A stretch of 64,000 nucleotides of DNA, from the NCBI GenBank assembly GCA_005888095.1, contig VBKF01000094.1, positions 1-64,000 of the forward strand, given 5' to 3'. The notes under the pieces are model-generated. The model was given only the letters and a program-made list of their open reading frames with translations, was not told where the DNA came from and did no database searches. The DNA is from Deltaproteobacteria bacterium (GTDB lineage: Bacteria > Desulfobacterota > Binatia > DP-6). Every line of letters begins with the position of its first letter. Within the stretch, counting starts at the first letter, position 1. The position numbers were made by a program, and so were the translations under genes. Shown piece after piece: positions 8,826 through 33,790 of the stretch.

Positions 8826-8828
8826 ACC

Positions 8829-9125: not shown

Positions 9126-9139
9126 ATCCACCTCACAGC

Positions 9140-9170
9140 GGTGCGCCGACGTCGGACGCGCCGGCGCACC
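9140..9170. terminator. bidirectional hairpin between convergent genes
   Basis: GGTGCGCCG (9140-9148) pairs perfectly with CGGCGCACC (9162-9170) around a 13-nt loop. It sits in the 88-bp gap between the zinc-ribbon stop and the stop of the convergent Cys-rich gene, a normal place for a shared terminator. There is no T-run on either side. Confidence 0.45.
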
Positions 9171-9213
9171 GACAGTGTCGAGTATCCTTTGCAGCCTCGG
9201 ATCGCCCGTGCGC

Positions 9214-15725: not shown

Positions 15726-17090
15726 ATGCTCTCGCGACGGCGCTTCCTCGCTTCGTCGGCGGTCGTCGCGGGAGCCGTCTTGCTCTCCCGCCGAGCGCCC
15801 GCACGCGCCCGCGACGACTGGCCCGCGCACGGCTGCGGCCCGGCGCAGACGCGCCACAACGCCGGGGAGTCGAGGCTTCGCCCGGACAACGTCGCGCGGC
15901 TCGCCTTGCGTTGGGACTTCGAAGCGGACTCGGGAATCACCGGCACCCCGGCGGTGGTCGGCGAGCGGGCCGTCGTCGGCTCCTGGGACGGTCGGGTCTA
16001 CGCTCTCGAGTGCAGCTCCGGAAAGCGGCTCTGGACCTTCGAGGCCGGGACACGGAGCTACCCGCCCGACCGGCGGCTAGGTATCTATGCCTCTCCCGCG
16101 GTCTCGGGAGAGACGGTATTCGTCGCCTGTGACCGGCTGCTCGCGCTCGATCTCGAAAGCGGGCGGCGGCGGTGGGAGCGAGTCGTGGGAGATCCGGAGA
16201 AGAGCTTCGAGTACTTCTGGGCGCCGCCGCTCGTCCACGGCGGCAGGGTCTACGCCGGCGTCTCTTCGGGGAGCGAAACGCAGACACGCGGGCGCGTCGT
16301 CTGCCTGGATGCCGCCACGGGAAGGCCGCTGTGGACGTTCTTCACCGTTCCCGCCCGCGTCTCGGGCGGCGCCCTCATCGCCCCGCCGTCGCTCGACCTC
16401 CGCTCCGGAGCGCTCTACGTCGTGACCGGGAACCCCTTTCACGTTCTCCCGGGGAACCTCGAGCACAGCTCGAGCGTGATCGCCCTCGACGCCGCGACCG
16501 GGGCCTTGCGGTGGACCGACCAGGTTCATCCTCACGACGACCGGAACCTGGACTTGAACTGCCCGCCGATGCTCCTCCGCGGCCGGCGCGGAAGACCGCT
16601 CCTCGTGGCCGGCGGCAAAGACGGCATCCGGGCGTGGGATCGCGAAGCGGGACGGCGGCTCTGGCACGTCCAGCTCAGTCCCGCCGTGCCCCCGGGGGGC
16701 GGAGAAGCCCTCCCCACGACCGGGCCCGAAGCCGGTCCAACCGCGACCGCGGACGGTTTCGTCTTCTTCGCCTCCAACCACCACGCGGACAAGGGATGCG
16801 CCGTGGCCGCGATCGAGGCCGACAGCGGCGAGATCCGCTGGCTCCACTTCCTGCCTGCGTTCCAGTTCGGTCCGCTCTCGGTCGCCGGCGGCGTCGTCTT
16901 CCTCGGCTTGATCGACGGCAAGCTTCGCGCCTGGAGGGCAGCCGACGGCGAGCCCCTCTGGGAGTCGGCTGCCGGCCCGCCGATCGCCGGCGGCCCGGCC
17001 ATCGCGCACGGCATGGTCTTCGTCGGTACCGGGGCCGGGCAGTTCCTTCCGGGGAAGAAGCTCCTCGCCTTCGGTCTCCCCTCCGCGTAG
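15726..17090 (+). CDS. Tat-exported PQQ-binding-like beta-propeller protein
   Basis: 454 aa. The N-terminus has a twin-arginine signal (LSRRRFLASSAVVAGAVLL). The mature part is built from repeated blades with the quinoprotein-type signature xxGxxYALxxxxGxxLWxF: RVYALECSSGKRLWTF, LALDLESGRRRWERV, VVCLDAATGRPLWTF, IALDAATGALRW, IRAWDREAGRRLWHV. Such folds either hold PQQ in alcohol or glucose dehydrogenases or serve as scaffolds, as in BamB. I do not see the vicinal Cys pair typical of methanol dehydrogenases. It is the first gene of the arm and ends 10 nt before eboC, so its role is presumably linked to that pathway in the periplasm. Confidence 0.82.
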   Translation: MLSRRRFLASSAVVAGAVLLSRRAPARARDDWPAHGCGPAQTRHNAGESRLRPDNVARLALRWDFEADSGITGTPAVVGERAVVGSWDGRVYALECSSGKRLWTFEAGTRSYPPDRRLGIYASPAVSGETVFVACDRLLALDLESGRRRWERVVGDPEKSFEYFWAPPLVHGGRVYAGVSSGSETQTRGRVVCLDAATGRPLWTFFTVPARVSGGALIAPPSLDLRSGALYVVTGNPFHVLPGNLEHSSSVIALDAATGALRWTDQVHPHDDRNLDLNCPPMLLRGRRGRPLLVAGGKDGIRAWDREAGRRLWHVQLSPAVPPGGGEALPTTGPEAGPTATADGFVFFASNHHADKGCAVAAIEADSGEIRWLHFLPAFQFGPLSVAGGVVFLGLIDGKLRAWRAADGEPLWESAAGPPIAGGPAIAHGMVFVGTGAGQFLPGKKLLAFGLPSA

Positions 17091-18840: not shown

Positions 18841-20214
18841 CTAGCGATCGAGGAGATCGAGTGCGAGCGAGAGGACATCGGTCATGGCCATCTTTTCGCG
18901 CGAGAAGCGGGCCTCCGAGCAGATCGCCACCGGGCCTTCCTCCGCTCGATCGGGAAGCCGCCCGTGGGTTCCCCGGACGATGGTCGGATCGAGCGAGATC
19001 ACGTCCATGAGGTAGCGGAGGCCGAGCGCCTTTCGGGCGAGCGCCCAGGCGGCGCGGAGCTTCACCAGCGGGCGAGCGGGATCGAAGAAGAGCTCCGCGG
19101 GGTCGTAGCCGGGCTTGCGATGAATGTCGACGGTGCGCGCGAAGTCGGGAGCCCGCGCGTCATCGAGCCAGTAGTAATAGGTGAACCAGGCATCGCGCTC
19201 CGCCACCGCGACGAGATCTCCCGCCCGCTCGTGGTCGAGACCGAACTCCGCCTTTCCCGCATCGTCGAGCACTCGTTCCACGCCATTCATCGAGCGGAGG
19301 ATCTCGGTCACTCGCTCCCGATCCTCGCGACGCTTCACGTAGACGTGCGCGATCTGGTGATCGGCGACGGCGAAGGCGCGCGACTCGCCGAAGTCGAGCA
19401 GCTCCCAGCCGAGCGGCGTCTCGAGCGCCGAGAGCAGGCCGGCCTCGCGGAGCACTCGGTTCGGATGCAGGGGACGGCGGGCGTCGGTGATGCCGTACTC
19501 CGAAACCACGAGCACCGCTGCGCCTCGCGCCCTCACCTGTGCGATCAGCTCGCCGGCCACCCGATCGATCTTCGTCACCTCGGCACGGGCACGCGGATCG
19601 GAGGCGCCATAGCGCTGGAAGTCATAGTCCAGGTGTGGAAGGTAGACGAGCGCGAGCGTCGGCCGGTGCTTCTCGATCACGTGCAGCGCGGCCCGCGCGA
19701 TCCACGCCGAGGCGTCGATCGCCGCCCCCGGACCCCAGAAGGTGTGGAACGGAAACGCGCCGAGCGCCGACTCGAGCTCGAGGCGAAGGCCGTGCGGGTA
19801 GGTGTAGATGCCGAAGAGCTTGCTCCCGTCGGCCGGGTACGTCGGCCTCGGCGTCACCCCGAGATCCGCCGTGGTGTTCATGTTGTACCACCAGAAGAGG
19901 TTCGCGCAGCGGAGCGACGGATCGCGCCGACGCGCCTCGTCCCACAACTTCTCTCCCTGGATGAGCGCTCCCGACTGCCGCCAGAGCCACACCTCGTTCA
20001 GCTCGCGGAAATACCAGCCGTTGCCGACGATGCCGTGATTGCGCGGAAGCTTCCCCGTCACCATCGTCGCCTGTGCCGAGCAGGTCACCGCGGGGAGCAC
20101 CGGGGCGAGCTCCGCCGCGAAGCCATCGCCAGCGAGTGCCGAGAGGTTCGGCGTCTCGGCCCCGAGCATCCCCCGCGTGAGACCCACGACGTCGAGGAGG
20201 AGAACCGGCTTCAC
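18841..20214 (-). CDS. eboF: alkaline phosphatase/nucleotide pyrophosphatase-family protein, EboF-like
   Basis: 457 aa from a GTG at 20214 that overlaps the eboE stop (GTGA). The N-terminus KPVLLLDVVGLT gives the first metal Asp, and PAVTCSAQATMVTGKLPRNHG holds the nucleophile Thr region of the NPP/alkaline phosphatase superfamily. Two later metal sites differ from textbook members. The DxxGH motif reads LDYDFQRYG (Gln in place of His), and the usual SDHG reads SEYG. The product may therefore be a specialised or weak phosphodiesterase. No signal peptide is visible, so it is probably cytoplasmic. It is the last gene of the ino1-eboA-eboB-eboE-eboF arm. Confidence 0.8.
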   Translation of the reverse strand: MKPVLLLDVVGLTRGMLGAETPNLSALAGDGFAAELAPVLPAVTCSAQATMVTGKLPRNHGIVGNGWYFRELNEVWLWRQSGALIQGEKLWDEARRRDPSLRCANLFWWYNMNTTADLGVTPRPTYPADGSKLFGIYTYPHGLRLELESALGAFPFHTFWGPGAAIDASAWIARAALHVIEKHRPTLALVYLPHLDYDFQRYGASDPRARAEVTKIDRVAGELIAQVRARGAAVLVVSEYGITDARRPLHPNRVLREAGLLSALETPLGWELLDFGESRAFAVADHQIAHVYVKRREDRERVTEILRSMNGVERVLDDAGKAEFGLDHERAGDLVAVAERDAWFTYYYWLDDARAPDFARTVDIHRKPGYDPAELFFDPARPLVKLRAAWALARKALGLRYLMDVISLDPTIVRGTHGRLPDRAEEGPVAICSEARFSREKMAMTDVLSLALDLLDR

Positions 20215-21425
20215 GACTCCCTTCGCGCGCCACACGCGGCCAGCGCGCGCTCGGCGAACTCGATCTCGCGGGCGATCCCTTCGACGAGCGTCTCGTCGTC
20301 GCGCGGCCGGATGGACTCCGGGAGCACGTTCCAGGTGTAGGTCTCGACCTCGAAATGAGGCAGCGGTCGCGTGGCGGCCGCTCGCGAGATCAGCTGGAGG
20401 AGATCCTTCGACGTGGTGCGGAGCCCCTGCCCTTGGGGCTCCCAGTGCAGCGGGGCGTGAAAGTGCACACGCCAATCGGCAGGCTCGGCGAAGCGCTCGC
20501 GAGCGGCCAGCGCGGGGCCGAGGTCGGCCCACCCTTCGACCACGCCGCTTCGGTCCCGGCGCCGCACCTGGTGGAGGAAGCGAATCTCGTCGAAGGGGCG
20601 AAGCCGTGGCTCGGCGCGCGAGGAGTCCTCCCCCGGCACCTCGAGTGCACAGGAGAGCTGGACCTTGCCGACGCGAATACCGGCCTCGGAGATCTTGCTC
20701 CATGCCGCGGCCGGGTCCTCGAACTCGACCGCTTGATGGCAAGCATCGAAGCAGAGGCCGAGATGACGGTCGACGATCGCCGGATCCACTCCCCGCCGGC
20801 GTACGGCCGGGCGGAGGCGATCGTGGAAAAAAGCGATTGCCTGGTCGCTCGTCTCCACGATGCAGTCGGGCTCGGGCTCGAGACAGACCCGGATCCGGCG
20901 GCCGTGCCGGTCGGCGAGCCGATGGAGATCCACCGCCAGGTGGGCAAGGGTCGTCGCGCATTCTTCCGCGCTCGATGCCCCGGCGGTCGGCGCATAGGTC
21001 AGCGGTAGAGTCGAGATCGTTCCCTCCTCAACGTCCGCCGGGAGAAGCTCGCACAGGATGTGCGCGAGATCGAGCGTGTAGTGATGCCGCCGGACGTCGG
21101 CCCAGTCGGGGCGATAGACTTCTTCCTTGACGCGCTCGGCGTGAAAGTCGCCGTAAGGAAAGCCGTTGAGTGTCACGAGCTCGAGCCCGTTCGCCTCGAG
21201 CCCTTCGCGAAGCTGCGTGCGCGTGTCCGGCGAGGCGAGCAGCTCGCTCGCGCTCCGGCGGCTCAGCCAGAGGCCGAGGGAGAGCCGCCGCACGCCGAGC
21301 CGGCGGCGTACCGGCGCGCAGTAACGGGACAGCGCCCCAAGAACGGACTCGAGGTCGTCGATCGCGTGAACGTTGGTGCAGTACGTGAGGATCGTGCGGC
21401 TGCCGTCGGGAAAGCGGATCCGCAT
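20211..21425 (-). CDS. eboE: EboE-like TIM-barrel protein (metabolite traffic protein family)
   Basis: 404 aa. The N-terminus TILTYCTNVHAIDDLESVL and the block LNGFPYGDFHAERVKEEVYRP are characteristic of EboE proteins, which belong to the xylose-isomerase-like TIM barrels. Further support: LPLTYAPT, RIRVCLEPEPDC with an acidic ligand, and LGLCFDACHQAVEF with the Asp/Cys/His set in the place of metal ligands. The C-terminus has PHFEVETYTWNVLP. The biochemical role is unknown; EboE is thought to act with EboF and EboC on a small-molecule precursor. The ATG lies 2 nt after the eboB stop, and the stop overlaps the eboF GTG, so translation is coupled. Confidence 0.85.
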   Translation of the reverse strand: MRIRFPDGSRTILTYCTNVHAIDDLESVLGALSRYCAPVRRRLGVRRLSLGLWLSRRSASELLASPDTRTQLREGLEANGLELVTLNGFPYGDFHAERVKEEVYRPDWADVRRHHYTLDLAHILCELLPADVEEGTISTLPLTYAPTAGASSAEECATTLAHLAVDLHRLADRHGRRIRVCLEPEPDCIVETSDQAIAFFHDRLRPAVRRRGVDPAIVDRHLGLCFDACHQAVEFEDPAAAWSKISEAGIRVGKVQLSCALEVPGEDSSRAEPRLRPFDEIRFLHQVRRRDRSGVVEGWADLGPALAARERFAEPADWRVHFHAPLHWEPQGQGLRTTSKDLLQLISRAAATRPLPHFEVETYTWNVLPESIRPRDDETLVEGIAREIEFAERALAACGARRES

Positions 21426-21427
21426 GC

Positions 21428-22300
21428 TCACCAGTGTTGTCCGCCTCGAAGGAGCGTATTCCCCTCCCACGGGCCTCGGTCGATCGCCAGTGGCTGCTCG
21501 AGCTCCGCGGGGTCGAGGCGGCCCGTCTGCGAGAAGAAGGCGACCGGGTTCTTCCAGACGAGCGTCTCGATCGCCGCGTCGGGGAGGCCTCGGCCGCGAA
21601 GGTGCATCGCCGTCCGCGGGACCTTGAGCGGATCACTCCGTCCCCAGTCGGCGGCGCTGTTGATGATCATGCGCTCGACGCCATAGCGCTCGAAGATCGC
21701 GCCGACGCGCTCCTCGGTCATCTTGGTGTCGGGGTAGATCGAGAAGCCGATGTAGTGACCGGTCTCGACGACGAGCGGCACCGTCTCCTCGGTGTTGTGA
21801 TCGATCAACACGCGCTCGGGTGCTACGTTCATCTCGCGCACGATCGCCACCGTCCGCTCGAGCCCTTTCACCTTGTCGCGGTGGGGAAGGTGGACGAGGA
21901 GGGGGAGCTCGTGCCGCATGGCCAGCTCGATCTGCACGCGAAAGAACTTTTCCTCGGTCGCCGTCTGGTCGTCGAAGCCGATCTCGCCGACCGCCACCAC
22001 GCCGTCCTTCTCGAGGTATCGCGGCAACACCTCGATCACCGCCTGATTCACGCGGCCGTCGTTGGCCTCCTTCGGGTTGAGCGCGACCGTGCAGACGTGG
22101 CGGATGCCGTACTGACTCGCCCGGTAGCGCTCGAAGCCGAGGAGCAGATCGAAGTAGTCGACGAAGGTTCCAACCGACGTCCGTGGCTGGCCCTGCCAGA
22201 AGGCCGGCTCGCAGACCGCGACGATGCCGGCAAGCGCCATGCGCTCGTAGTCGTCGGTCACCCGCGAGGCCATGTGCACGTGCGGCTCGAATATCTTCAT
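21428..22300 (-). CDS. eboB: TatD-like metal-dependent hydrolase, EboB-like
   Basis: 290 aa. The amidohydrolase-superfamily barrel shows HxH in IFEPHVHMASR near the N-terminus, VGEIGFDDQT with the bridging Glu, LLVHLPHRDK (His), VLIDHNTEE (His) and SAADWGRSDP (Asp). It differs from DNA-repair TatD proteins in the central region (FWQGQPRTSVGTFVDYFDLL), which is the form found in ebo clusters. Substrate unknown. AAGG precedes the ATG at 22300. The gap to eboA upstream is 8 nt and to eboE downstream 2 nt. Confidence 0.85.
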   Translation of the reverse strand: MKIFEPHVHMASRVTDDYERMALAGIVAVCEPAFWQGQPRTSVGTFVDYFDLLLGFERYRASQYGIRHVCTVALNPKEANDGRVNQAVIEVLPRYLEKDGVVAVGEIGFDDQTATEEKFFRVQIELAMRHELPLLVHLPHRDKVKGLERTVAIVREMNVAPERVLIDHNTEETVPLVVETGHYIGFSIYPDTKMTEERVGAIFERYGVERMIINSAADWGRSDPLKVPRTAMHLRGRGLPDAAIETLVWKNPVAFFSQTGRLDPAELEQPLAIDRGPWEGNTLLRGGQHW

Positions 22301-22308
22301 CGTGCCTT

Positions 22309-23091
22309 CTATCGCCCCGCGCGCGCGAGTGCCACCTCGAGCATGCGACGCTCGTAGGGATCGGCAGCGGTCGCCAGGCGGTTCCGGATCCGCTCGACGG
22401 TGCCCGGGATCGGGTGGAGCGCGATCACCGGCCAGAGGTCCGCGCCGACGCTCCGCCCCGCGTGCTCGCGTTCGGTGACGTAGGCGAAGAGCATGCGGGC
22501 GAGCTCCGGCGTCGCCCGCTCCTCGACCCGCTCGATGCGCTCGACGCGGAGACCGACGAACGCGCACTTGAGGACCGCCTGATTGAAGAGATCGTCCGGC
22601 AGGTGGCGCGAGGTGTAGCCGTTCTCGCAGATGGCGGCGGCGAAGAGATCGGCGGCATTGGCGCGCAGGGAATCTCTCACGGCCGGGAGCGCCGCGTCGC
22701 TCTCGGGCAGCAGCGCGAGCCCTCGGAGGAGAGCGATCCGCTCCCGGCCGTCGCTCACGAAGTAGAGATCGTTGGCGCGTGCGGGGGCGCCGGCCGGCTC
22801 GCGCCGGGCATCCTCGAGGAGAAGGAGCACCCGCGCGGCCTCATCCACGCGCCATGGGTTCAGGACAGGCCCGCCGGAAAACAGTCGGACGATCTCCGCG
22901 GAGGGCGGCTCGAGGAGCATCGCGTGACCGACCTTCCGAGGTGCGCTCGGAAAATGTCGCCCGAGCGCCAACCCGTCTCCCCGTATCTCCCTTCGGGCGG
23001 TGGAGAGCCACGCCGAGGCCGGCTGGGAAACGCGGGGCGCGAGTCGAGCGTCCAGCGCGTCGATGCTCGCGGGAAGGTTCAACTCACTCAA
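22309..23091 (-). CDS. eboA: EboA-domain protein
   Basis: 260 aa, soluble and mostly helical. The diagnostic C-terminal block is LFNQAVLKCAFVGLRVERIERVEERATPELARMLF as seen in EboA proteins (NQ-VLKALF-G-P--RI), preceded by FAAAICENGYTSRHLP and followed by YVTEREHAGRSVGADLWPVI. Its biochemical function is unknown. No ATG fits the upstream boundary: a TTG at 23091 or 23082, overlapping the stop of the preceding secreted-protein gene, is the likely start by coupling. An ATG at 23169 would overlap that gene by 86 bp and add residues that are only its shadow. Confidence 0.75.
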   Translation of the reverse strand: MSELNLPASIDALDARLAPRVSQPASAWLSTARREIRGDGLALGRHFPSAPRKVGHAMLLEPPSAEIVRLFSGGPVLNPWRVDEAARVLLLLEDARREPAGAPARANDLYFVSDGRERIALLRGLALLPESDAALPAVRDSLRANAADLFAAAICENGYTSRHLPDDLFNQAVLKCAFVGLRVERIERVEERATPELARMLFAYVTEREHAGRSVGADLWPVIALHPIPGTVERIRNRLATAADPYERRMLEVALARAGR

Positions 23092-23740
23092 TCGGCTGAT
23101 CGAGCCCGAGTGCCACCAGGAAGCGCGATGCACACTCCCCGCCTTGCCTCCCGGGATAGGGCCGAGCAAAGCGGAATTCGTACATCGGAAGCCGTCCGTT
23201 GATGGTCACGGGCCGGATCTCTTCCGAGCGCTCGGCGTCCTTCAAGCGCGCCGTGACCGACGGCGCCGATCCGGGCTTCCAGCCAAGCTTCACGTTGACC
23301 AGCGAATTGTGGTTCCAGGCTTGCCCCCCATCCGGTTCACACTTGCACCGGAGCTCTTCCACGATGTCGAAGTCGAGCGCGCTGAATTCTCCCGCCTTCT
23401 CGAATCCGAGGCCGCGGGCGCTGCGGGTGATCACTCCCCAGCCGGCGCCGAAGAGCTTTTCGGGATCGTTCTCGATCGTCGCCGACGACTGGCCGGCTTC
23501 GGTGTAGCGGAGGCGGAAGCTTGCCGGCGGCGCGGATCCTTCGAGATCTGTGTCGCACGGCGGGGGTGCCGGCTCCGCCCAGGAGATCATCTTCACCAGC
23601 GTGACGCGCTCGGGAGGCTTCGCGGCCGCCTTCGGCGGCCCTCCGGGGCCATGGTGATGATGGCGGGGCGCCGCTGCGTGCGGCCGCCAGAGACTGCAAG
23701 AGAGCAGCAAACAGATCGGTGCGAGCCAGCGGGCTTTCAC
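23084..23740 (-). CDS. secreted protein of unknown function in the ebo-type arm
   Basis: 218 aa from a GTG at 23740. The signal peptide WLAPICLLLSCSLW precedes a His/Pro/Ala-rich stretch. The mature domain holds ISWAEPAPPPC, FSALDFDIVEELRCKCEPD and YEFRFARPYPGRQGGEC. These three blocks also occur, in the same order and spacing, in the lipoprotein encoded at 25047-25730, so the two are paralogues. The Cys set suggests disulfides. I do not recognise a family. It lies between ino1 (14 nt upstream) and eboA (overlap), so it belongs to the operon and would act outside the cytoplasm, where the ebo product is thought to be delivered. Confidence 0.75.
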   Translation of the reverse strand: MKARWLAPICLLLSCSLWRPHAAAPRHHHHGPGGPPKAAAKPPERVTLVKMISWAEPAPPPCDTDLEGSAPPASFRLRYTEAGQSSATIENDPEKLFGAGWGVITRSARGLGFEKAGEFSALDFDIVEELRCKCEPDGGQAWNHNSLVNVKLGWKPGSAPSVTARLKDAERSEEIRPVTINGRLPMYEFRFARPYPGRQGGECASRFLVALGLDQPIE

Positions 23741-23754
23741 GGAACACCCGCGAT

Positions 23755-24981
23755 TCACATGCTCGCGCGCTTGCCGCCGGCCAGGGCTGCGATTCGACAG
23801 CGCCGGAGATAACTGTCCAGCATCGCATACTGCCGGCCGAGTTCTTGCTCCTGCGTGCCGACGGGCGCCTTGAAGAAACAGGCCGCCTGGGTCATGGGCC
23901 CGCTCTCGCCGCGCCGGAGCGCCAGATCCGCGAGCCGGACGAGGTCGATCACCAGAGGCGCGGCGAGCACCGAATCGCATCCTTGCCACGTGAACTGCAT
24001 CGTCATGCGCACGCCGAGAAATCCCTGGAAGTGGATCAGGTCCCACGCCGTCTTCCAGTCGCCGAGCGAGGGGACGTAGGTGATCTCGACGCTCGTCTCG
24101 GGCGAATAGCCGAGCACGCCCCGGACGACGCCGTCCTTGGTCTCCACCTTGGCGGCCTTGACCTCGGGCGCGTTCAGGGCGGCGCCGTCGGAATTGCCGA
24201 GCACATTGTCGCCGTGCCAGGCGAGCACCTGGAGGTCGCGCTCACGAAAAAGCGATGCCAGCGCCGACTTGACCAGCGTCTCGCCGGTCTTGCCGTCGGT
24301 TCCGGCGAAGGGCACGCCCTCACGCTCGGCCAGCTCGCGAATGGCCGGAGCGAGCGCGGCGGGCGACGCCGCAAAGTTGATGAACGCTGCACCTTCGCGC
24401 ATGGCAGCATAGGCGTACAGCGTGCTCGGGCGGAATACCGCCGACCCACCGCTCCTCAGACTCTCCTCGAGCCCCGCGAGCGTCAGGTGGTCTTCAGGAG
24501 TCGTGAAGACCGGCTCGGTGGTGGCGAGATTCACCACCACGACCCGCTCCAGGGAGTGCCGCCGCCGAAAGGCTCGGAGATCACCGCCGAGCCTCTGGAC
24601 GACCTCCGCCGGCGTTTCGGCGTCCTCCACCGTCACGCACGGGGGCGGCGACCCTCGAGTTTCACCGTTGACGATGTTCCGGTCGATTTCCTGGAGATCG
24701 AGCGCGAGACGATCGAGCAGACGGGGGTCGAAGATTCGCGCCGACTCGGCGAGTTCGGTCGCCGCATCCAGCAGCGACCCGGCGCGGACCTCCCACCCGC
24801 CGAACACGAGCGCGGACGCTGCGGGCATTGACAGACCCTCGCCCCGCGGCCCCTCGGTCGTGACTCCCCGCAGCGGCAAGAGACGGCGCGCGGCGGCGCG
24901 CGCGCCCACCATCGTCGTGGTCGCCACCGCGCCGCGGGCGCCGATGATCCACACGCCCGTCCGAGGTCCTTCCTCGTTCAC
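23755..24981 (-). CDS. ino1: inositol-3-phosphate synthase family protein
   Basis: 408 aa from a GTG at 24981 with GGGAGG 6 nt upstream. Cyclises glucose 6-phosphate to inositol 3-phosphate using bound NAD. Motifs: GVWIIGARGAVATTTMVGA (Rossmann loop), VVVNLATTEP, GTDGKTGETLVKSAL and LGNSDGAALNAPEVKAAK, the signature active-site blocks of the family with the catalytic Lys residues. It heads the minus-strand ebo arm. In this window there is no 3-dehydroquinate-synthase-like EboD; a second NAD-dependent sugar-phosphate cyclase stands in its place. Its product could feed the pathway or be an inositol-like precursor itself. Confidence 0.88.
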   Translation of the reverse strand: MNEEGPRTGVWIIGARGAVATTTMVGARAAARRLLPLRGVTTEGPRGEGLSMPAASALVFGGWEVRAGSLLDAATELAESARIFDPRLLDRLALDLQEIDRNIVNGETRGSPPPCVTVEDAETPAEVVQRLGGDLRAFRRRHSLERVVVVNLATTEPVFTTPEDHLTLAGLEESLRSGGSAVFRPSTLYAYAAMREGAAFINFAASPAALAPAIRELAEREGVPFAGTDGKTGETLVKSALASLFRERDLQVLAWHGDNVLGNSDGAALNAPEVKAAKVETKDGVVRGVLGYSPETSVEITYVPSLGDWKTAWDLIHFQGFLGVRMTMQFTWQGCDSVLAAPLVIDLVRLADLALRRGESGPMTQAACFFKAPVGTQEQELGRQYAMLDSYLRRCRIAALAGGKRASM

Positions 24982-25046
24982 GGTCGACCTCCCGGAATGG
25001 TTGAAGCGCACCCGCGGCTGCGATACGAAGCGCGAGCCTTCGGACC
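24982..25046. promoter_or_regulatory. 65-bp divergent gap between ino1 and the paralogous lipoprotein gene
   Basis: Promoters for the leftward ino1-ebo arm and the rightward lipoprotein gene must overlap in this gap or extend into the genes. No clear -35/-10 pair is visible. The GGGAGG on the minus strand is the ino1 ribosome site. Confidence 0.35.
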
Positions 25047-25730
25047 ATGAAACGCGCTCTCGTCGGTGTGCTCGCCCTGGCCGCAGCCTGTGGTCCCGCT
25101 GCGCGGCACGGACCGGAAGGCCGGCCAGTCCGCGAGAAGATGCCCGGGCAGACCGACCCGGCGATTCGTGCGAAGCATCTCGCGGAGCGGTTCCCGGGGG
25201 TCGAGCGGATCGACTTCGTGCAGGTGCTTGCCTGGGTCGAGCCCCGCCACGGCCCGTGCTGGAGCGAGCTTTCTCCCGTCCACCGCACCCCGGTCGAGAT
25301 GCGCTACTCGCTCCGCGGCTGGAATCCGATCGCCGGGACCGAGCACGCCGAGGGCCTCGAGGAGCTCGTCGCCCGGGGTTGGACGCGCATCTACCGCGCC
25401 CCGCAGGGCGAAGGGGTCGAGCGCCGCGCGTCCTTCACCGCGCTCGACCTGAGCTACGGCCCGGAGCTGCGCTGCCGCTGCGCCGGTGTGGGAGACGCCG
25501 TCGAAGAGTCGAAGAGCGACGTGAGCCTCCGCTTCCGCTGGGAGCGCGGCAAGATGTTCGAGGCGAGCGCGACGGGCGGAGCGCGGCACACGGGTCTCAG
25601 CCCGGCGATCACGGCCGGGCACCTCGTCACCTACGACTTCGCCACCGAGGGCGCCTTCCCCGGGGGCAAGGCGGGCAGCTGCGGCGCTCACGTCGCGCTC
25701 ACGCTGCTCATCGAGCCGCCGATCCTCTGA
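25047..25730 (+). CDS. lipoprotein of unknown function, paralogue of the 23084-23740 product
   Basis: 227 aa. A short signal peptide ends in LALAAAC, a lipobox. The mature part carries VLAWVEPRHGPC, FTALDLSYGPELRCRCAG and YDFATEGAFPGGKAGSC. These are the same three blocks, in the same order, as in the secreted protein of the opposite arm. Overall identity looks modest, so the duplication is old. The gene diverges from ino1 and ends 3 bp from the stop of the convergent propeller gene. A surface or periplasmic binding role linked to the ebo-type product is possible but not shown. Confidence 0.75.
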   Translation: MKRALVGVLALAAACGPAARHGPEGRPVREKMPGQTDPAIRAKHLAERFPGVERIDFVQVLAWVEPRHGPCWSELSPVHRTPVEMRYSLRGWNPIAGTEHAEGLEELVARGWTRIYRAPQGEGVERRASFTALDLSYGPELRCRCAGVGDAVEESKSDVSLRFRWERGKMFEASATGGARHTGLSPAITAGHLVTYDFATEGAFPGGKAGSCGAHVALTLLIEPPIL

Positions 25731-25733
25731 GCT

Positions 25734-28145
25734 TCACTCGACGACCATCCAATCGTAGGGGGCCTTCAGCTTGATGGGGCTTCCGGGCGCGCCGGGCGCG
25801 AAAGGCTCGGGATACGGGCCGTGGAACAGGTCGCTCCCGCGCGGCGCCGGGCAGGACGGCGCTCCCGGACAGGTTGCGGGAGCGGTCGGGTCGACCCCCA
25901 CGACCGCGATTCCCTTCTGCACCGGCACGTAGATCCTCCCGTCGACGATCGCCGGGCCGCCCCCGCCCGGCGTCGCGGCGGCGGGAAGCCCGACGGTGGC
26001 GAGCAGCTCGGGCTTGCGGCTGGTCGTCGCCGGCGTCACCGGCACGTCGATGCCCGAGTCCATCCGCACCACGTCGAGCCGAGTCCCCGTCGGCATGAAG
26101 AGCATGCCGCTCGCCGCGGCCCCTTCGCCGAAGCTCGCGCCGAGCGTGCTCGACGCCCACTTGAAGTCGCCGGTACAGGCGTCGACGGCGAACGCGTTCA
26201 CGTCATCGCCCGGAAGCGGGCCGAGCGGGAGCGCGGCCGAGGCCGCCAGGATGCGTCCCGAGATCACCCCACCCGCCGCATCGAAGCCGCCGCCCAGGCT
26301 GCCGTAGGCGAAGCAGGGCCGCCAGAGCAGGCGCTGTTGCCCGACGCGCAGGGGATCGAAGTCGAGGTCGCCGACCTGCGGTACGTCGGGCTGCTGTGGG
26401 AAGCCGTAGATGCAGCTGTCCTTGTCGATGGTGACGACCAGGTGGCAGCCGCCGGTTCCGTCGACGTCGACGATCGTCGGCGAGTTGCCGATGTCGAGGT
26501 CCGCGACGTCGACCAGACGGCGCTGGTGCCACCACTGCCGGGCGCCGGTGATCGGATCGAGAGCGACCAGCGACTCCGCCAGCTCGGCCATCTGCGGCTT
26601 CTGCACGCAGTCTCCGGTCGTCATGAAGAGCTGGGTCCGGTCCCGGCTCATGGCGGGCGCCGTCCAGATGACGCCGCCGAGGCCGTCGCCGTTGACGACC
26701 GGATCGAAGGTCCAGAGCTTCTCTCCGGTGAAGGCGTCGAGCGCGTAGAACTCGCCGTTCGAGCAGTCGAGACCGGTCGACGGCACGTAGAGCACGTCCC
26801 GCGGACCGCCCGGGAAAGGCATGTCCGCTGCGAAGAGCGGCGAGCCGTTCAGCGTGTTGCGGTCGCCGCCGAGATCCACGGGCGGCTCGGGCGACCCGAG
26901 CGACATCGGCCAGGGCCCGTCGCAGAAATAGGCCTGGCAGGCGCTCGGCGTGTCTCTCGTGCAGCCCGGCGGATCCGCCGGGCAGTCCCCGTTGACGTTG
27001 CACTCGCACGTGTCTTCGCAGAGCGCGCCGCTCGGGGTGACGCTCCGGTCGGCGACGATCTTGTCCACGTTCAGGCACCAGAGCGTCTTGTCGACCCGAT
27101 TCGCGCCGAAGTAGAGGCGCTGCTCGTCCTGGCCGGTGCTCGGGTTCGTCACCAGCGCCAGGTTGGGCGTCGACTGCACGCCGGTGTAGGTGCCGAGCGC
27201 GCTCCCGACGGGTCCGGCCGTGTGCGTGGCAATCCGGAGGAGGAGGCGAGGCGCCGTCGGCGGCTGCGCGTCGAGACCGCTCACGTCGTAGACGTAGAAC
27301 CAGCCGACCATGTCGCCGAAGAAGACCAGCCGGTCGCCGACCACCGGCGTGTGGTTCACCACGGTCACGCCGAAGGTCGGCGGCCCGTCCGCGGAGAGCG
27401 TCGCCAGCAACGTGAGGTCGGGCGCATTCGCCGGCGTGAGCTTCGGGTCGTCGCCGACGTTGGCGGTGTTCTGCGCGTCGAAGAAGCGGCGCGGCCAGCT
27501 GTCCACCGCGGGCGCCAGCGTCGTCGTCGTGACCGTGCTGATGGTGGTGGTGGTCGTCGGCGGCGGAGTGGTCGTGGTGGTCACGCCGGCTTGCCCCTCT
27601 GCTACCACGAAGCCTGGATCGGCAACCGACCAGATGTCGCCCTGATCCGCATTGGTCTGGACACCGATCCCATTGACGACGTTGCCCGCGAGATAGAACG
27701 TCACCGGCCCCGCGCCGGGATTCGGCGCGACCCAGTCGATGTCCCAGGAGCTGCCGAGCCCCGTGGGACCGACGAATCCGACCGACTTGGGCGCCGAATG
27801 CGTCGCCTGTCCGTCGAGCCCGCTCACCCACGCGCTCGAGTCGAGGGCGTGAAGCGTGCCGGCGGTGGCCTCGAGGTCGAATCCCGCGAAGCGCGGCGCG
27901 GGAAGCGCGATCCCGCGCACCCAGGCCTGCAGGTGATAGGTGGTACTCGGGACGTAGGCATCCGGCAGCCCCACCACCGAAACCTCGGTCGTCTTGTTCG
28001 AGGTCGTTCCGGCCATGCCGTGGCACGTGCAGCCCTGGGCCGGCCGGGCGACGCCGGTGATACCGGTCGAGTACGCCGAGACGAGCGGCGCTAGGAGAAG
28101 GCCCGCGGCAACGAAGCCGAGGAACAACGAAGTCGTCAGTCTCAT
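25734..28145 (-). CDS. secreted choice-of-anchor V (Reeler-like) domain fused to PQQ-like propeller
   Basis: 803 aa. Signal peptide ~1-24; then a Reeler-like choice-of-anchor V domain (~30-185) containing GCTCHG (C39-x-C41-H42, a possible heme-attachment variant) and the closing block AGPVTFYLAGNVVNGIG. A Thr/Pro linker (~188-212) leads to a quinoprotein-like propeller (~215-800). Propeller features include LVALDPITGARQWW, FYALDAFTGEKLWTF and a Cys-rich insert near CEDTCECNVNGDCPADPPGC. AGGAG precedes the ATG. It is the last gene of a four-gene operon with an amidohydrolase and a copper monooxygenase. A role as periplasmic electron acceptor or quinoprotein dehydrogenase in that pathway is inferred. 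Confidence 0.8.
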   Translation of the reverse strand: MRLTTSLFLGFVAAGLLLAPLVSAYSTGITGVARPAQGCTCHGMAGTTSNKTTEVSVVGLPDAYVPSTTYHLQAWVRGIALPAPRFAGFDLEATAGTLHALDSSAWVSGLDGQATHSAPKSVGFVGPTGLGSSWDIDWVAPNPGAGPVTFYLAGNVVNGIGVQTNADQGDIWSVADPGFVVAEGQAGVTTTTTPPPTTTTTISTVTTTTLAPAVDSWPRRFFDAQNTANVGDDPKLTPANAPDLTLLATLSADGPPTFGVTVVNHTPVVGDRLVFFGDMVGWFYVYDVSGLDAQPPTAPRLLLRIATHTAGPVGSALGTYTGVQSTPNLALVTNPSTGQDEQRLYFGANRVDKTLWCLNVDKIVADRSVTPSGALCEDTCECNVNGDCPADPPGCTRDTPSACQAYFCDGPWPMSLGSPEPPVDLGGDRNTLNGSPLFAADMPFPGGPRDVLYVPSTGLDCSNGEFYALDAFTGEKLWTFDPVVNGDGLGGVIWTAPAMSRDRTQLFMTTGDCVQKPQMAELAESLVALDPITGARQWWHQRRLVDVADLDIGNSPTIVDVDGTGGCHLVVTIDKDSCIYGFPQQPDVPQVGDLDFDPLRVGQQRLLWRPCFAYGSLGGGFDAAGGVISGRILAASAALPLGPLPGDDVNAFAVDACTGDFKWASSTLGASFGEGAAASGMLFMPTGTRLDVVRMDSGIDVPVTPATTSRKPELLATVGLPAAATPGGGGPAIVDGRIYVPVQKGIAVVGVDPTAPATCPGAPSCPAPRGSDLFHGPYPEPFAPGAPGSPIKLKAPYDWMVVE

Positions 28146-28166
28146 GACTGGCTCCTCAACCCGCTC

Positions 28167-29660
28167 TCACCAGGAGAGCCCCACCAGGCTGCACCGCCCG
28201 TCGTCCACGCCGTCACCGTAGACGAGGTTGGCGGGCCGGCAGTGCTGAGTCCCGGGGACGGCAGCGCAATCGTTGGTGCTGTTCGGGGACTCGCTCGAGC
28301 TGGCGCAGAACGTCGCCGGGCCGCCGCCCGCGAGCCCAGACAGACCGGGAGGAACGTTGGCGGTCTCCTCGCACCCCCACTTGAGCGGCGAGCTCAGATC
28401 GACGGGCCCCGTCACGTCGTTCAGCATCCAGTTGGTGCCATTGGAGCCGACCGACGCCGCGCCATTCGGTACCCATCCGTTGGCGTGGATGCAGCTGTAG
28501 CCGATCGGGCCGCCTGCGACGTCGGTGTAGCCTTGAGCGACGGTCGACCCCTGGACGAGCATCTGTCCGTTCGCATCGAGAAGCGCGGTCCCCAGCGCTC
28601 TCCGGTCGGACCAGATGCCGACTCTCGCGCTGCCTGCGACCGCCGCCGGCTGCCACGCGCCGCGCGTCTCGCCGTAGCTCTGCGGGGACACGAAGAGCGC
28701 CTGGCTTGCCCCGTCGTCGCGCAGCGGCTGCGCCTGGTTGGCCACCGACGACGCCACATGCACGTTCACGTAGACCGATCCCGTAGTGGTGTTCGTGTAG
28801 GGCGCCGGGCCCACCCAGTAGTCGTTTCGGATCCACTGCTCGATCGCGAGCTGTTGGTTCGGCACGATCGGCACGCCGGCAGCGACGTCGTCGAGCGTCA
28901 GGGAAAGGCTCGGGCCGCGCGCAACGGCGATCGGCGCCGATTCTCCCGCGCGCGACACCGCCACGTATTCCGTCCCGGCCGACGCCGTGATGTCGATCCC
29001 GGTGATGAAGCACTGCTGCTGGGTGTTGTCGCAGGTGGGCGCGGCTCCCACCGGGAGCGTCGTCATCTGCTTCCCGCCGCGCGCCGGGCGATCGACGGTG
29101 AAGGGCGTGCCCACGAGCTGGATGCCGTCGGAAGGCGGCACCGGAGGGCTCAGCGCGGGCTGGCTCAGGTCGCAGACCACCAGCGCAGGGTCGGGCGAGG
29201 GATCTCCATCCACGGCCCCGCACGCGGGCGCGCCCGCCAGGATCCATGCTTTGATCTTCTCGACCCCGCCCGGGCACTGGTAAACGTAGCCGGTGCTCAG
29301 GTTCGGCATCGGGTTGCCTTCGCCGAACTTGAGATCGCCCATCACCTTGTCGACCACGTAGCTGTTCCAGGCCCGCGTGGGATCGACGCGCAGCTTGCCG
29401 ACGCCGGACGCTGCCGTGTTGACGGGAGGCCGGTTGACGAGCGCGGCGTACCAGCCGTCGTCCGTGTTGATGCTGACGGGCATGCCGCCGTTGCCGCTGC
29501 CTCCATGACAGCCCGTGAAGCAGGACAGCTCGAGAATGTTGGAGGAGATACCTTCCCAGGCCGACGCCGAGGAGCAGCCGTGCGCACGCGCCTCGGAGTG
29601 GAAACCGAGGAGCGCCAGCGAGACAGCCGCCGCGGCGACCTCACGTGCGGAGCGCTTCAT
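28167..29660 (-). CDS. secreted heme-motif protein, degenerate paralogue of the neighbouring copper monooxygenase
   Basis: 497 aa. Signal peptide ~1-26. Near residue 47 lies LSCFTGCHGG, a C-x3-C-H motif (C47, C51, H52) that could attach a c-type heme. The C-terminal half repeats features of the next gene upstream: KWGCEETANVPPG against RYGCEEVPGVPPG, and PANLVYGDGVDDGRC against PANIVFANVAEDEMC. The copper-binding Met (EMC) has become GRC, and no HxH copper motif is visible. The protein therefore looks like a non-catalytic or electron-transfer relative. GAGGG lies 6 nt before the ATG at 29660. Gaps are 14 nt upstream and 21 nt downstream. Confidence 0.75.
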   Translation of the reverse strand: MKRSAREVAAAAVSLALLGFHSEARAHGCSSASAWEGISSNILELSCFTGCHGGSGNGGMPVSINTDDGWYAALVNRPPVNTAASGVGKLRVDPTRAWNSYVVDKVMGDLKFGEGNPMPNLSTGYVYQCPGGVEKIKAWILAGAPACGAVDGDPSPDPALVVCDLSQPALSPPVPPSDGIQLVGTPFTVDRPARGGKQMTTLPVGAAPTCDNTQQQCFITGIDITASAGTEYVAVSRAGESAPIAVARGPSLSLTLDDVAAGVPIVPNQQLAIEQWIRNDYWVGPAPYTNTTTGSVYVNVHVASSVANQAQPLRDDGASQALFVSPQSYGETRGAWQPAAVAGSARVGIWSDRRALGTALLDANGQMLVQGSTVAQGYTDVAGGPIGYSCIHANGWVPNGAASVGSNGTNWMLNDVTGPVDLSSPLKWGCEETANVPPGLSGLAGGGPATFCASSSESPNSTNDCAAVPGTQHCRPANLVYGDGVDDGRCSLVGLSW

Positions 29661-29674
29661 GGCGCACCCTCGGC

Positions 29675-31777
29675 TCATAGACCCGGCCCGCAGCCCGAGC
29701 AGTAGCCGATGTCGCTCGGTGACTTGGGCAACCGTCCGGGAGTCCCGTACTTGCTGATGTTGTTCGGGTCTGACTCGAAGTCCTGGATAGCCTGCTGGTT
29801 GAGCGAGCCATCCTGGTTCAGGATCTCGTCGAGCGGCCAGTACATCACGACGCCAATGCACATCTCGTCCTCGGCCACGTTGGCGAAGACGATGTTCGCC
29901 GGGACGCAGTTGCCCGTTCCCGTCGTGCAGATGTCGGGGTTCGGATACCCGCCGTCGACGGGATGGCAGTTCGGGTCCTGTCCCGGAGTGCAGCCCGATG
30001 GATCCGTTGCGGGGTTCGGCGGGCAAACCTGCGCGGGCGACCCCACAGAACCCGGAGGTACGCCCGGTACCTCCTCACAGCCGTAGCGGACGCGGTAGAT
30101 GAGCTGCTTGATCCCGAGATCGTCCTTCTGCTCGCCGAAGAGCACCTCGTCCCCGACGGTGCCGTCGCGGATCGCCGTCCGGAGCGGCTCCGGCGCCTGC
30201 TCGGTCTGGATGACGCCGTTGTTGTGGATGCAGTGGGTCGCCAGGGCGTCGCCCTTGCGCAGGATCAACGGACCATCCGGCTGCTTGTAGTAGCGGCAGA
30301 CCGGCGGATCGTCCCAGTGCCAGTCGGTGTAGATGTGCTCCGGCGGGAGGCCATTCTGGCTCACGCCGCACTCCTCGGGCCTGACTCCGGCGCCCGCCTC
30401 CTCCGCGCTCAGCCCGCCGGTGCGGATGGGGTTGGCTGGCAGGACGTCGATCGTCCCCTTCACCGTGCGCTTGTGGCTGTGGATGGCGAGGATGCCGATC
30501 GCGAGATCATAGGGCGCGTACCAGACGCCGCCCGTGTTCCCGATCGTGTACGGCGGGAAGAACGTGGTGGCGACGTTGACCACGACGTCGAAGCCGACGC
30601 TGAGCGGCTTGTAGTTGCCGTCGGCGACCGGCGCGGTGAAGAGCTGGATGATCATCTCGCCGACGGTCCCGCCGATCGGCGTCGTGCCTGGCGCGGGCCA
30701 GCCGTCTTCCGCGTGCTGGGCGATCAGCCCGCCCTGCTGCTTGCGGAAGTTCCGGAAGGTCGTGTTTCCCTGGTAGCCGATCGGCAGCTCCGAGACGACG
30801 TGGTGGTCGCAGGCCCAGAGCTGGTCCTCGAGGTTGTACACGGCGCGGCCGGTGGGAAGGTCGACGAAGAGGCGGCCCGGGTACTGCGTCGCGTTGCGGA
30901 ACTGCTGGTTGTAGCCGCTGTACACCGAGCAGTGGAAGCCCGGGTCGCTGGCGGGACAGGTCTCCGCGCCCGACTGATAGCTGCCGGCCGGCGGCGGGTT
31001 CCCGTTCGTCCCGCATTCGCTCGTGCTCGAGGCGGTGGCGGAGTCGTCGGGGTTGTTGCAGGGGTTCGGTCCCTGGAGCTGCCCCGTCCCCTGGAACCCC
31101 ACTCCCGGGTTCCAGCAGGTGCCGTGGTGGCTGCCGAAGTGGTTGTAGAACTCGGAGGCGACGTTCCACTCGCGGCGGTTGTCGGGCGCGACGTTGTCGT
31201 CATTGAGCTGATTGGTGTTCTCGAACCGGACGATCACCTCGGCGAGACGATCGTAGATCTTGGGGTCCGTCCCGACCTGCCACGGCCCGTAGTGGACGCG
31301 GACGCCCCGCCGGCACTCGACGGTGTAGAGATTCGTCCCGTCCGTATCCTGACCCGCCGGCGCCCACCATGGGATCTGATGATCGTTGCCCCCGGTGATC
31401 GCGTTGGGCACGTCCGGACAGAGTTGTGTGAGGCCCAGTCCGGGCTCGTCGAACCCGTCCACGCCGTCGGTGTAGAGCGGCGGCGGCCGGTCGACAGGTC
31501 CATGGAGAAATCCGGTGATGGGATCGTACGCCGCCCGCACGGGCACGTGGAGCTGCACCGTCGCCGGCAAGTCCCAGTACAGCGGCTGGCAGTCGGTGGT
31601 GTAGTTCTCCAGGGACTCGATGTTTCCCGGATTGGGGAGCGGATTTTTCTGCAGCGCCGTCCCACAGCGGCTACTCGGCTTGAGCTCGGGGTTGGTGTGG
31701 TAGTCCGCCGTGGCCGTGGTGACTCCGATCAGCAGGGTCGCCGCCGCTCCCAGCGTCATCGGCCTGGTGCGCGTCAT
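29675..31777 (-). CDS. secreted PHM-like copper type II monooxygenase-family protein
   Basis: 700 aa. Signal peptide ~1-24. The C-terminal half matches the peptidylglycine/dopamine monooxygenase fold. CDHHVV (H325-H326) fits the CuH His pair. AIHSHKRTVKG (H433, H435) fits the HxH of CuM. GDALATHCIHNNG corresponds to the conserved GDxLxxxC strand, and AEDEMCIGVVMYW (M639) to the Met ligand. A third CuH His is not obvious. Such enzymes hydroxylate C-H bonds using copper, O2 and an electron donor. The long N-terminal half has many Cys and no recognised domain. GGGAGGG precedes the ATG. Substrate unknown. Operon partners are a Tat amidohydrolase and heme/quinoprotein-like proteins. Confidence 0.78.
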   Translation of the reverse strand: MTRTRPMTLGAAATLLIGVTTATADYHTNPELKPSSRCGTALQKNPLPNPGNIESLENYTTDCQPLYWDLPATVQLHVPVRAAYDPITGFLHGPVDRPPPLYTDGVDGFDEPGLGLTQLCPDVPNAITGGNDHQIPWWAPAGQDTDGTNLYTVECRRGVRVHYGPWQVGTDPKIYDRLAEVIVRFENTNQLNDDNVAPDNRREWNVASEFYNHFGSHHGTCWNPGVGFQGTGQLQGPNPCNNPDDSATASSTSECGTNGNPPPAGSYQSGAETCPASDPGFHCSVYSGYNQQFRNATQYPGRLFVDLPTGRAVYNLEDQLWACDHHVVSELPIGYQGNTTFRNFRKQQGGLIAQHAEDGWPAPGTTPIGGTVGEMIIQLFTAPVADGNYKPLSVGFDVVVNVATTFFPPYTIGNTGGVWYAPYDLAIGILAIHSHKRTVKGTIDVLPANPIRTGGLSAEEAGAGVRPEECGVSQNGLPPEHIYTDWHWDDPPVCRYYKQPDGPLILRKGDALATHCIHNNGVIQTEQAPEPLRTAIRDGTVGDEVLFGEQKDDLGIKQLIYRVRYGCEEVPGVPPGSVGSPAQVCPPNPATDPSGCTPGQDPNCHPVDGGYPNPDICTTGTGNCVPANIVFANVAEDEMCIGVVMYWPLDEILNQDGSLNQQAIQDFESDPNNISKYGTPGRLPKSPSDIGYCSGCGPGL

Positions 31778-31800
31778 CGTCGTTCCCTCCCACCTCTGCG

Positions 31801-33654
31801 CTACGAGATTCTCTTGAGGAAACCCCTCTCGTTCTGCGCGAGCATCGCACCCCGGTGCCACGGATCCTTCCGCAGCGCCGCGAAGAGCTCCCGTCGCGTG
31901 CGTGGCCCACGGACCTCGTTCCGCGCGATGGGGTTCAGCGCGTACTGGTCACGTATCTTCTGGACGTCGTCGCACTTGATTGCCGCAAGAGTCAGGTCCG
32001 GATCGATCCGGTACGGCTCGGCGGCGCTCCGCCCGAGGATGCCGTTGCGGATCGTCCTCCGCGGGTCGGTTGCGAGCTGGGTCGGATCGTCGACGTCGCC
32101 GTCGAGGCCCCACGGCAGGTTGTACGTGGCCCTGGCCTCGTCCGACATCTGGAAGGCCCGCAGAGCCTCGATCAGCCCCTGCGGCGATCCACCCCAGAGG
32201 GCGTCGGTGCCCCACACCACTCGCTTCGGCCCGACGTAGTAGATCAGCTTGCCCAGGAGCCAGCTCCCGCGCGTGGGATTGCCAACGACCGAACCCCACA
32301 CCGAGCCGAGCTCGGCGTAGACGTTGGGAACGTTGGCGTGCGCCGCGTCGGACGGCGCCTCGCCCGCCGCAAGCGGCGTCCCGGGGCTGCCGCCGGGAGC
32401 GAAGTGTCGGGCCGACCAGCCGTTCTCGCGCAGCGCGGTGATGAAGTTGTCGACGCCGCGGCTCGTGGACGGCGCCGCGGTCTCGCCGGGGTAGGGCCCG
32501 TTGGCGCTCGTCCCCTGGTTCAGGGGTCCGCCGAGGCCGACGCCGTCGCCGTCGTAGCCCGAGTGGTAGATGATGAAGATCACGCCGGTGTTGCTCCCGA
32601 GATCCCAGAACATCGGCGCCACCACACCGACGTCGCGGGTGGCCGCCTTCTCCTGATCGAAGCTGGGCAACGCGAAGCCCTTGTGGGCGCAGAGGAGCGG
32701 CGGCATTCCGTACGTGTCCGAGAGATCCTTCACGTGCTGGATGAACTTGAGACCGAATGAGTCATCGAGCCACCAGCCGCTCGTGTTCGGAGCGTCACCC
32801 CAGGGCGTGTAGATCTTCCAGGCGCGGAGGTAGCCGTCGTTCTGGCCGTACTGGGCGGCGGCGGCGGTCATCAGATCCATCTCCTCCTGGAAGAAGACCG
32901 GATCCTGGCCGGCGGCGGTGAGCACCTGTTCGCTGTTGTCTCCAGCCGAACCCCGATTCGGCATCACGAACTTGTGGCAGTACGTGCGGCGCGTGCCGCC
33001 GGCGAGCGTGCGCACGATCTCGGCGGTGTTGATCGATTCGGAAAGCGGCAGCGGCTGGCCGTCCGGCTTCCAGGGAACGGCGGACAGGATGGTCACGTTG
33101 GTCGCGCTGTCGAGCATGAGCTCCTTCAGGTAATGGAAGCGGCTGAGACACTCGTTGCGGTCGAGCTCTCCGCAGCTCGCCTGGCTCCACGCGACGTAGA
33201 AGAACGCCGCTTCGCCGGTGTTCTCCGTGTACCACTCGGCGCTCGGCATCACGTGGTGGGTCTGGAGGTCCATGATGAATTCGCCGGCCAGGTTGTTGAG
33301 CTGGGAGCCGGGATACGCGAGATCGAAGTAGGTGGGCTCCCCGCGCGTTCCGATCGGGGCGTTCAGCCCGCAGCTGTCCTGGGCCCAGGCGTAGTACCCT
33401 CCCCTCGTCCCCATCACCTTGTTGATCGCCGCCAGGCAGATCGCATAAGCCGCGCCCGTCTGAAGAAACCTCCGCCGCGACATCCCCACCTTGCGGGCGG
33501 TCGCGTCACATTCCTCCCGGGCGACCTTCATGATCGCCTTCTGCTCCGGCGTCGGCTCGAGTGGGATGAACTCCTCATTCGAGACCGGGAGCACGTCGAT
33601 CGGCAAGCGATCGGTCAGCGACTCCTCCATCAGAGCCTTCAACCGCTTCGGCAT
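31801..33654 (-). CDS. Tat-exported amidohydrolase-family (amidohydrolase 2) protein
   Basis: 617 aa. An unusually long n-region (~58 residues) precedes a twin-arginine motif SRRRFLQ at 59-65 and a hydrophobic stretch. The enzyme part has MDLQTHHVMP (H133, H134) in the place of the first metal motif, LLCAHKGFALP (His), YAELGSVWG, and VVWGTDALWGG (Asp), which together fit the metal-dependent TIM-barrel hydrolase/decarboxylase group. GGAGGGGAGG precedes the ATG. It is the first gene of the four-gene export operon, 23 bp before the copper monooxygenase. It could hydrolyse or decarboxylate the oxidised product in the periplasm. Confidence 0.82.
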   Translation of the reverse strand: MPKRLKALMEESLTDRLPIDVLPVSNEEFIPLEPTPEQKAIMKVAREECDATARKVGMSRRRFLQTGAAYAICLAAINKVMGTRGGYYAWAQDSCGLNAPIGTRGEPTYFDLAYPGSQLNNLAGEFIMDLQTHHVMPSAEWYTENTGEAAFFYVAWSQASCGELDRNECLSRFHYLKELMLDSATNVTILSAVPWKPDGQPLPLSESINTAEIVRTLAGGTRRTYCHKFVMPNRGSAGDNSEQVLTAAGQDPVFFQEEMDLMTAAAAQYGQNDGYLRAWKIYTPWGDAPNTSGWWLDDSFGLKFIQHVKDLSDTYGMPPLLCAHKGFALPSFDQEKAATRDVGVVAPMFWDLGSNTGVIFIIYHSGYDGDGVGLGGPLNQGTSANGPYPGETAAPSTSRGVDNFITALRENGWSARHFAPGGSPGTPLAAGEAPSDAAHANVPNVYAELGSVWGSVVGNPTRGSWLLGKLIYYVGPKRVVWGTDALWGGSPQGLIEALRAFQMSDEARATYNLPWGLDGDVDDPTQLATDPRRTIRNGILGRSAAEPYRIDPDLTLAAIKCDDVQKIRDQYALNPIARNEVRGPRTRRELFAALRKDPWHRGAMLAQNERGFLKRIS

Positions 33655-33695
33655 TGTGTCCTCCCCTCCGGCCGGCCCGCCCGACGACGAACGCC

Positions 33696-33790
33696 TCAGC
33701 CACCGCCCAGAGTTCGTCTCGGTCCCGCCGGCAGTTTCGTTGACGACGTCCCCGCGAGATGGAACGTGACCGGGCCGACACTCAAGTGGG
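33696..33790 (-). pseudogene. remnant of a choice-of-anchor V domain
   Basis: The minus strand reads VGPVTFHLAG, close to AGPVTFYLAG in the product of 25734-28145. The DNA following it matches that gene's AACGTCGTCAA segment with one base missing. If the frame is corrected, VVNETAGGTETNSG follows, as expected for the domain end. There is no start codon or upstream domain. It is a short decayed copy just before the amidohydrolase gene. Confidence 0.5.

Follow-up and report, generated by a model that had tools for sequence, protein, structure and literature searches.

The window analysed here, a stretch of 64,000 nucleotides from a Deltaproteobacteria bacterium of the class Candidatus Binatia, carries on its minus strand a cluster of four genes between positions 25734 and 33654, with gaps of 23, 14 and 21 bp between them. 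The first, g1 (31801..33654), encodes a 617-residue amidohydrolase-2-like protein with the twin-arginine motif SRRRFLQTG. It is followed by g2 (29675..31777), which is predicted to encode a PHM/DBM-type dicopper monooxygenase of 700 residues without a heme motif, and by g3 (28167..29660), whose 497-residue product joins a c-type-cytochrome-like domain to a PHM-like domain free of copper ligands. The last gene, g4 (25734..28145), encodes 803 residues comprising a choice-of-anchor-V domain with a CTCH motif, a Thr-rich linker and a PQQ-like beta-propeller. Each of the four ATGs is preceded by a purine-rich, Shine-Dalgarno-like stretch, and the N-termini of g2, g3 and g4, read by eye, resemble signal peptides. 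The initial annotation of this locus, which had described a one-strand cluster with small gaps, ribosome sites and export signals on all four products, is therefore borne out in these respects. Judging from gene spacing, g1 to g4 are probably co-transcribed. Convergent with the cluster, and separated from g4 by 3 bp, lies a plus-strand gene (25047-25730) for a putative lipoprotein or secreted protein, which is 90% identical in a related genome (G004) and gave no family match.

G004, which is placed in the same family but in another genus, carries the same four genes in the same order and on the same strand, with identities of 91, 90, 80 and 85% for g1, g2, g3 and g4, respectively, and with gaps of 13, 10 and 40 bp. 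Between these two genera dN/dS amounts to 0.17 for g1, 0.20 for g2, 0.34 for g3 and 0.25 for g4. Because order, strand and identity are kept, the gaps are short, and dN/dS stays between 0.17 and 0.34, the arrangement is not a product of chance; the four genes form a genuine cluster with products bound for export, and purifying selection acts on it. Positions 20001-33775 of the window are collinear with contig C202 of G004 at 87.7% DNA identity, and the similarity ends about 120 bp upstream of g1. Among the 98 relatives searched, G004 is the only one with the complete set and the only one with a full-length match to g2, and no further genome among 148 of the class matches g1 at more than 50% identity. 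In G004, the region upstream of g1 (L019, 14156-15313, minus strand) also holds the remnant of a choice-of-anchor-V gene (E 7.7e-15), and the window retains a 9-residue trace of such a domain at about 33750 (E 0.07); perhaps both derive from a decayed extra copy beside the operon.

The amidohydrolase is a distant member of its family. While g1 itself gave no match to PF04909 (Amidohydro_2) at E<=0.1, and its orthologue scored 21.8 bits, under the cut-off of 26.4, 11 of the 12 members of the g1 family do match this profile (best 1.1e-27). Six residues are invariant in the 12 homologues, D129, Q131, H133, K280, H324 and H364, of which we take the last three to be at the places expected for the amidohydrolase superfamily. 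Since Q131 and H133 are invariant, the usual HxH metal motif reads QxH in this family, the first His being replaced by Gln in 12 out of 12. On these grounds g1 is, as had been proposed, probably an amidohydrolase, a divergent Tat-exported one that differs from typical Amidohydro_2 proteins by its export, by QxH in place of HxH, and by falling below detection when taken individually.

At the other end of the operon, the anchor domain of g4 matches NF041895 at 81.7 bits and its propeller matches PF01011 at 42.6 bits, over the cut-off of 26.7, a likeness it shares with the propeller of PQQ-dependent alcohol dehydrogenases and the acido-empty-quinoprotein family (TIGR04528). Unlike a PQQ-dependent dehydrogenase, g4 has no vicinal Cys pair (CC) and is fused to the choice-of-anchor-V domain, and its own genome, rated 100% complete, holds no PqqE over the cut-off (best 63 bits against 381). 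The lack of vicinal Cys and of a PqqE over the cut-off makes the label 'quinoprotein' doubtful, although uptake of foreign PQQ is possible. Of the earlier suggestion that a PQQ-like propeller carries electrons, the propeller thus stands, while its role as a carrier is weakened, and we take g4 to be a putative binding or redox accessory. Two further propellers may be mentioned: a second Tat-exported PQQ-like propeller protein, encoded some 10 kb away from the operon (window 15726-17090, plus strand; PF13360, 137 bits), and a relative near a PHM fusion in G005:C14 (L022).

Do g1 and g4 belong with the copper proteins at all? A PHM-family gene was present in the fetched flank of 7 out of 40 other amidohydrolase loci, which makes it the most frequent neighbour family. 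At four of these loci (G003:C8, G045:C1, G056:C315 and G074:C172) it is directly adjacent and on the same strand, so that the pair is counted in three other lineages, G056 and G074 being of one genus. Based on the PHM counts of the genomes, 0.15 such pairs would be expected (P ~2e-5 for four, 5e-4 for three). The remaining three PHM neighbours lie in opposite orientation at a distance of 3.6-5.4 kb, and their presence could be due to chance. In G045:C1 a PQQ-like propeller adjoins the pair as well. These adjacent pairs, together with tight spacing kept in two genera, speak against the idea that g1 and g4 are unrelated neighbours and that g2 and g3 alone belong together. What keeps this idea alive, if rather unlikely, is that the flanks of 33 out of the 40 amidohydrolase loci show no PHM gene, and that neither an amidohydrolase of the g1 family nor such a propeller is found near 30 further PHM loci (L156-L165, L195-L214); most copies of both families stand alone. 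Of the 98 relatives searched, a single genome thus shows the full gene set, while the adjacent amidohydrolase-PHM pair recurs in three other lineages.

The copper protein g2 carries the motifs HSH and DEMC and two HH pairs, so that the HxH, EMC and HH motifs noted in the initial annotation do exist. The alignment assigns SHH (217-218) as the copper pair, with H326 of CDHH as third ligand, and in the register given by PHM chains H217, H218 and H326 presumably form the CuH site, and H433, H435 and M639 the CuM site. All six ligands of the copper type II family (PF01082/PF03712) are thus present in the order HH, H, HxH, M. Moreover, an alignment of 14 members of the g2 family has no more than 11 invariant columns, six of which are the predicted copper ligands. 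In comparison with known PHM/DBM, g2 is bacterial, exported, interrupted by large inserts and much diverged, its own score against PF03712 being 12.7 bits, under the cut-off of 23. Bacterial PHM-like sequences are present in Pfam and NCBI.

Profile comparisons reflect this divergence. All 11 PDB sequences matched by profile A1 at E<=1 are PHM or PAM with the ligand motifs in register, be it with E-values of only 0.07-0.99. The fusion-protein-dominated profile A4 did not recover PHM chains from the PDB, its sole match being the cytochrome FoxE (E 0.15), and profile A3 had no match there; phmmer searches of g1, g2 and g4 against the PDB yielded nothing meaningful. Neither did the two-row profiles A8 and A9 give a signal against A7, which includes one out-of-frame row (L147). 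AlphaFold models of g2 and of the PHM part of a fusion protein (L060), made from only three sequences each, reached a pLDDT of 30 and 28, too low for a usable model. The strongest link is the hhalign comparison of A4 with A10, a profile of four PHM-like proteins from loci over the PF03712 cut-off, which aligns at 99.9% probability (1.5e-34) and places the HH, H and HxH motifs in matching columns. Taken with the invariant ligands, this supports the initial reading of g2 as a PHM-like copper protein, and we regard it on sequence grounds as a probable, divergent member of the copper monooxygenases typified by peptidylglycine alpha-hydroxylating monooxygenase (PHM), which processes hormones in animals, and dopamine beta-monooxygenase (DBM).

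Elsewhere in the class, the usual form is a single chain in which a heme-like domain with a CX4CH motif precedes an intact PHM. In a pool of 112 ORFs from all fetched loci, overlaps between loci included, 69 have all six ligands, and most of these 69 also carry one CX4CH, a minority none. The N-terminal cytochrome part resembles the SO2930-type diheme c-type cytochrome domain (TIGR03806; 1.6e-9 in L120, 3.4e-6 in L155) and, in 2 out of 14, the Planctomycete cytochrome c (PF07635). It differs from both by its single heme-type motif, which is CX4CH in the fusion family and CX3CH in g3. Profile A4 found matches in 21 of 25 genomes that had been chosen for holding the amidohydrolase or for belonging to the window's family, with a maximum of 43 per genome when pieces and cytochrome-only matches are included; they were absent from four genomes of one family (G047, G420, G430 and G432). 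Among the 150 matches listed, at least 120, in at least 18 genomes, are near-full-length (model <=60 to >=550), with at least 18 in G068, 17 in G062, 14 in G030 and 13 in G036. These counts point to a large paralogue expansion of predicted cytochrome-PHM copper monooxygenases in Binatia, a single genome having 18 or more near-full-length copies.

In a phylum sample of 395 genomes, 20 had A4 matches, of which seven lie in the class and match via the PHM part; the matches of the other 13, all outside the class, reach no further than the cytochrome part (at most 217 of the 589 query positions). PF03712 was not found in 14 control genomes, and a plasmid search with L116 gave no match. One narrow scan of genome contigs returned a single locus, L060, on a Candidatus Binatia chromosome, where a 1234-residue protein (7050-10754) combines cytochrome-like and PHM parts with a WD40-like propeller. 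Two variant groups were observed as well: a PHM-like subfamily with His for the CuM Met (NEHC/QEHC instead of DEMC; L001:931-1890, L146-L150 and L152-L155), which several genomes encode, that of the window among them, and a copper-poor paralogue encoded by three members of the window's genus (L007:346-1626, L008:1429-2703 and L016:436-1755), in which three ligands are changed (L, N, V/A) and a heme motif is absent. The neighbours of 38 PHM loci, named by eye from sequence starts, include SDR (8), acyl-CoA dehydrogenase (8), P450 (4) and aldehyde dehydrogenase (4) genes; since this tally has no control, it is not counted as evidence.

Against this background, the make-up of g3 becomes understandable. 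Its cytochrome-like domain (residues ~34-145) holds the motif CFTGCH, which is CFAGCH in G004 and thus CX3CH rather than the canonical CXXCH or the CX4CH of the fusion relatives, and its PHM-like domain (residues ~170-497) has E/Y/Y/W/D/R at the six ligand columns, so that no copper ligand is kept. Residues 34-497 align as a whole with the cytochrome-PHM fusion family (hhalign 99.6%, 1.2e-23), for which reason we dropped the possibility of a separate cytochrome whose C-terminus has a different origin. We therefore read g3, from these alignments, as a paralogue of g2 with the reverse make-up, having kept the cytochrome-like domain and lost the six copper ligands. The initial annotation had called it a heme-motif paralogue, which holds for the heme-type motif and for the paralogy; it is not merely that, being a copper-dead PHM with a cytochrome domain that g2 does not have, and with a motif other than CXXCH. 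Three Cytochrom_C_asm genes over the cut-off indicate that its own genome encodes c-type cytochrome maturation.

How close the two paralogues are was addressed with a tree of 72 distinct PHM domains. Under an IQ-TREE mixture model, g2, its orthologue, a paralogue upstream in G004 and both g3 form one clade (100/95), and g2 and g3 still group when the G004 paralogue is left out (96/88). After removal of the g2 rows, g3 joins the G004 paralogue at just 75% in a quick tree. The branches of g2, g3 and the G004 paralogue are long, and because the tree program warned of this, close paralogy is probable but not assured. An economical account would be that an ancestral single-chain heme-PHM was duplicated, after which complementary loss left copper with g2 and heme with g3. 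So far, only the window's genome and G004 show the split form.

On balance, we lean towards reading the operon as an extracytoplasmic, O2-using monooxygenase of the PHM/DBM type that is split into two chains, with g2 providing copper and catalysis, g3 the entry of electrons through heme, and g1 and g4 accessory functions. In such a system g2, loaded with copper at both sites, would hydroxylate a C-H bond, and g3, with heme attached to its cytochrome domain, would contact g2 as the electron-entry and probably also docking subunit, passing electrons from its heme to the copper of g2 and replacing ascorbate. Tat-exported g1 may then act on the organic substrate or on its hydroxylated product, and g4 may serve in surface or periplasmic binding, as a scaffold or as a redox partner. 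Other genera of the class still have the single-chain form, as their cytochrome-PHM fusions show. The operon would thus differ from known PHM/DBM systems by a heme-domain partner in place of, or besides, ascorbate, and by the distribution of catalytic and heme parts over two chains. That a heme-type protein could be the electron partner of g2 had been suggested at the outset, and g3 is the likely candidate; oxidative breakdown of an organic substrate, also suggested then, fits the gene set.

It could be argued instead that g2 is an ordinary PHM driven by ascorbate or another small reductant, and that g3, a paralogue in decay or with a structural role such as binding protein or scaffold, passes no electrons. 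The dN/dS of g3 is the highest of the four, with 0.40 for the PHM part and 0.30 for the cytochrome part, and because its constraint is the weakest of the four genes, g3 could be drifting. Its CX3CH is non-canonical, and several PHM-like relatives (L026, L007, L008, L016 and others) do without any heme motif. However, both genera have an intact g3 that keeps a heme-type motif, the omega of its cytochrome part is well under 1, and fusions of cytochrome and PHM prevail in the class, all of which renders this alternative improbable. That the copper sites of the family serve to hold or oxidise a metal, O2 or a radical (in copper handling, a peroxide-related role or sensing), without hydroxylation and in a non-catabolic operon, would agree with the extreme paralogue numbers, with the ligands changed or lost in subfamilies (His for Met in L001 and in the majority of L146-L155; loss in L007, L008 and L016) and with the fact that no evidence indicates a substrate, but exact conservation of six PHM ligands in the g2 family next to a heme domain argues for PHM redox chemistry and makes this very unlikely.

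Tentatively, and with slightly less confidence than we would need to call it probable, we propose that Candidatus Binatia hold a large undescribed class of heme-wired, ascorbate-free PHM-type monooxygenases, in which a c-type heme domain feeds a dicopper hydroxylase, and whose expanded paralogues would open a wide range of organic molecules outside the cytoplasm, the window's lineage having split the chain by duplication and complementary loss. In the open-access literature searched, including passages of PMC8262859, PMC8812541, PMC7435645 and PMC11264602, we found no description of a cytochrome-PHM protein or of the four-gene operon, and among the six papers naming the PHM Pfam families or accessions no title concerned bacteria. 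The Binatia are a widespread uncultured group for which one study reports alkane and C1 metabolism (PMC8262859), and cytochrome-PHMs would extend its known repertoire by a family of hydroxylases acting outside the cytoplasm. A bacterial PHM branch with a built-in heme domain, numerous paralogues in each genome and one split lineage would furthermore provide a test system for the route by which electrons reach uncoupled copper sites. If our reading is true, the split in the window's lineage is a natural experiment, showing the heme unit to belong to the catalytic machinery.
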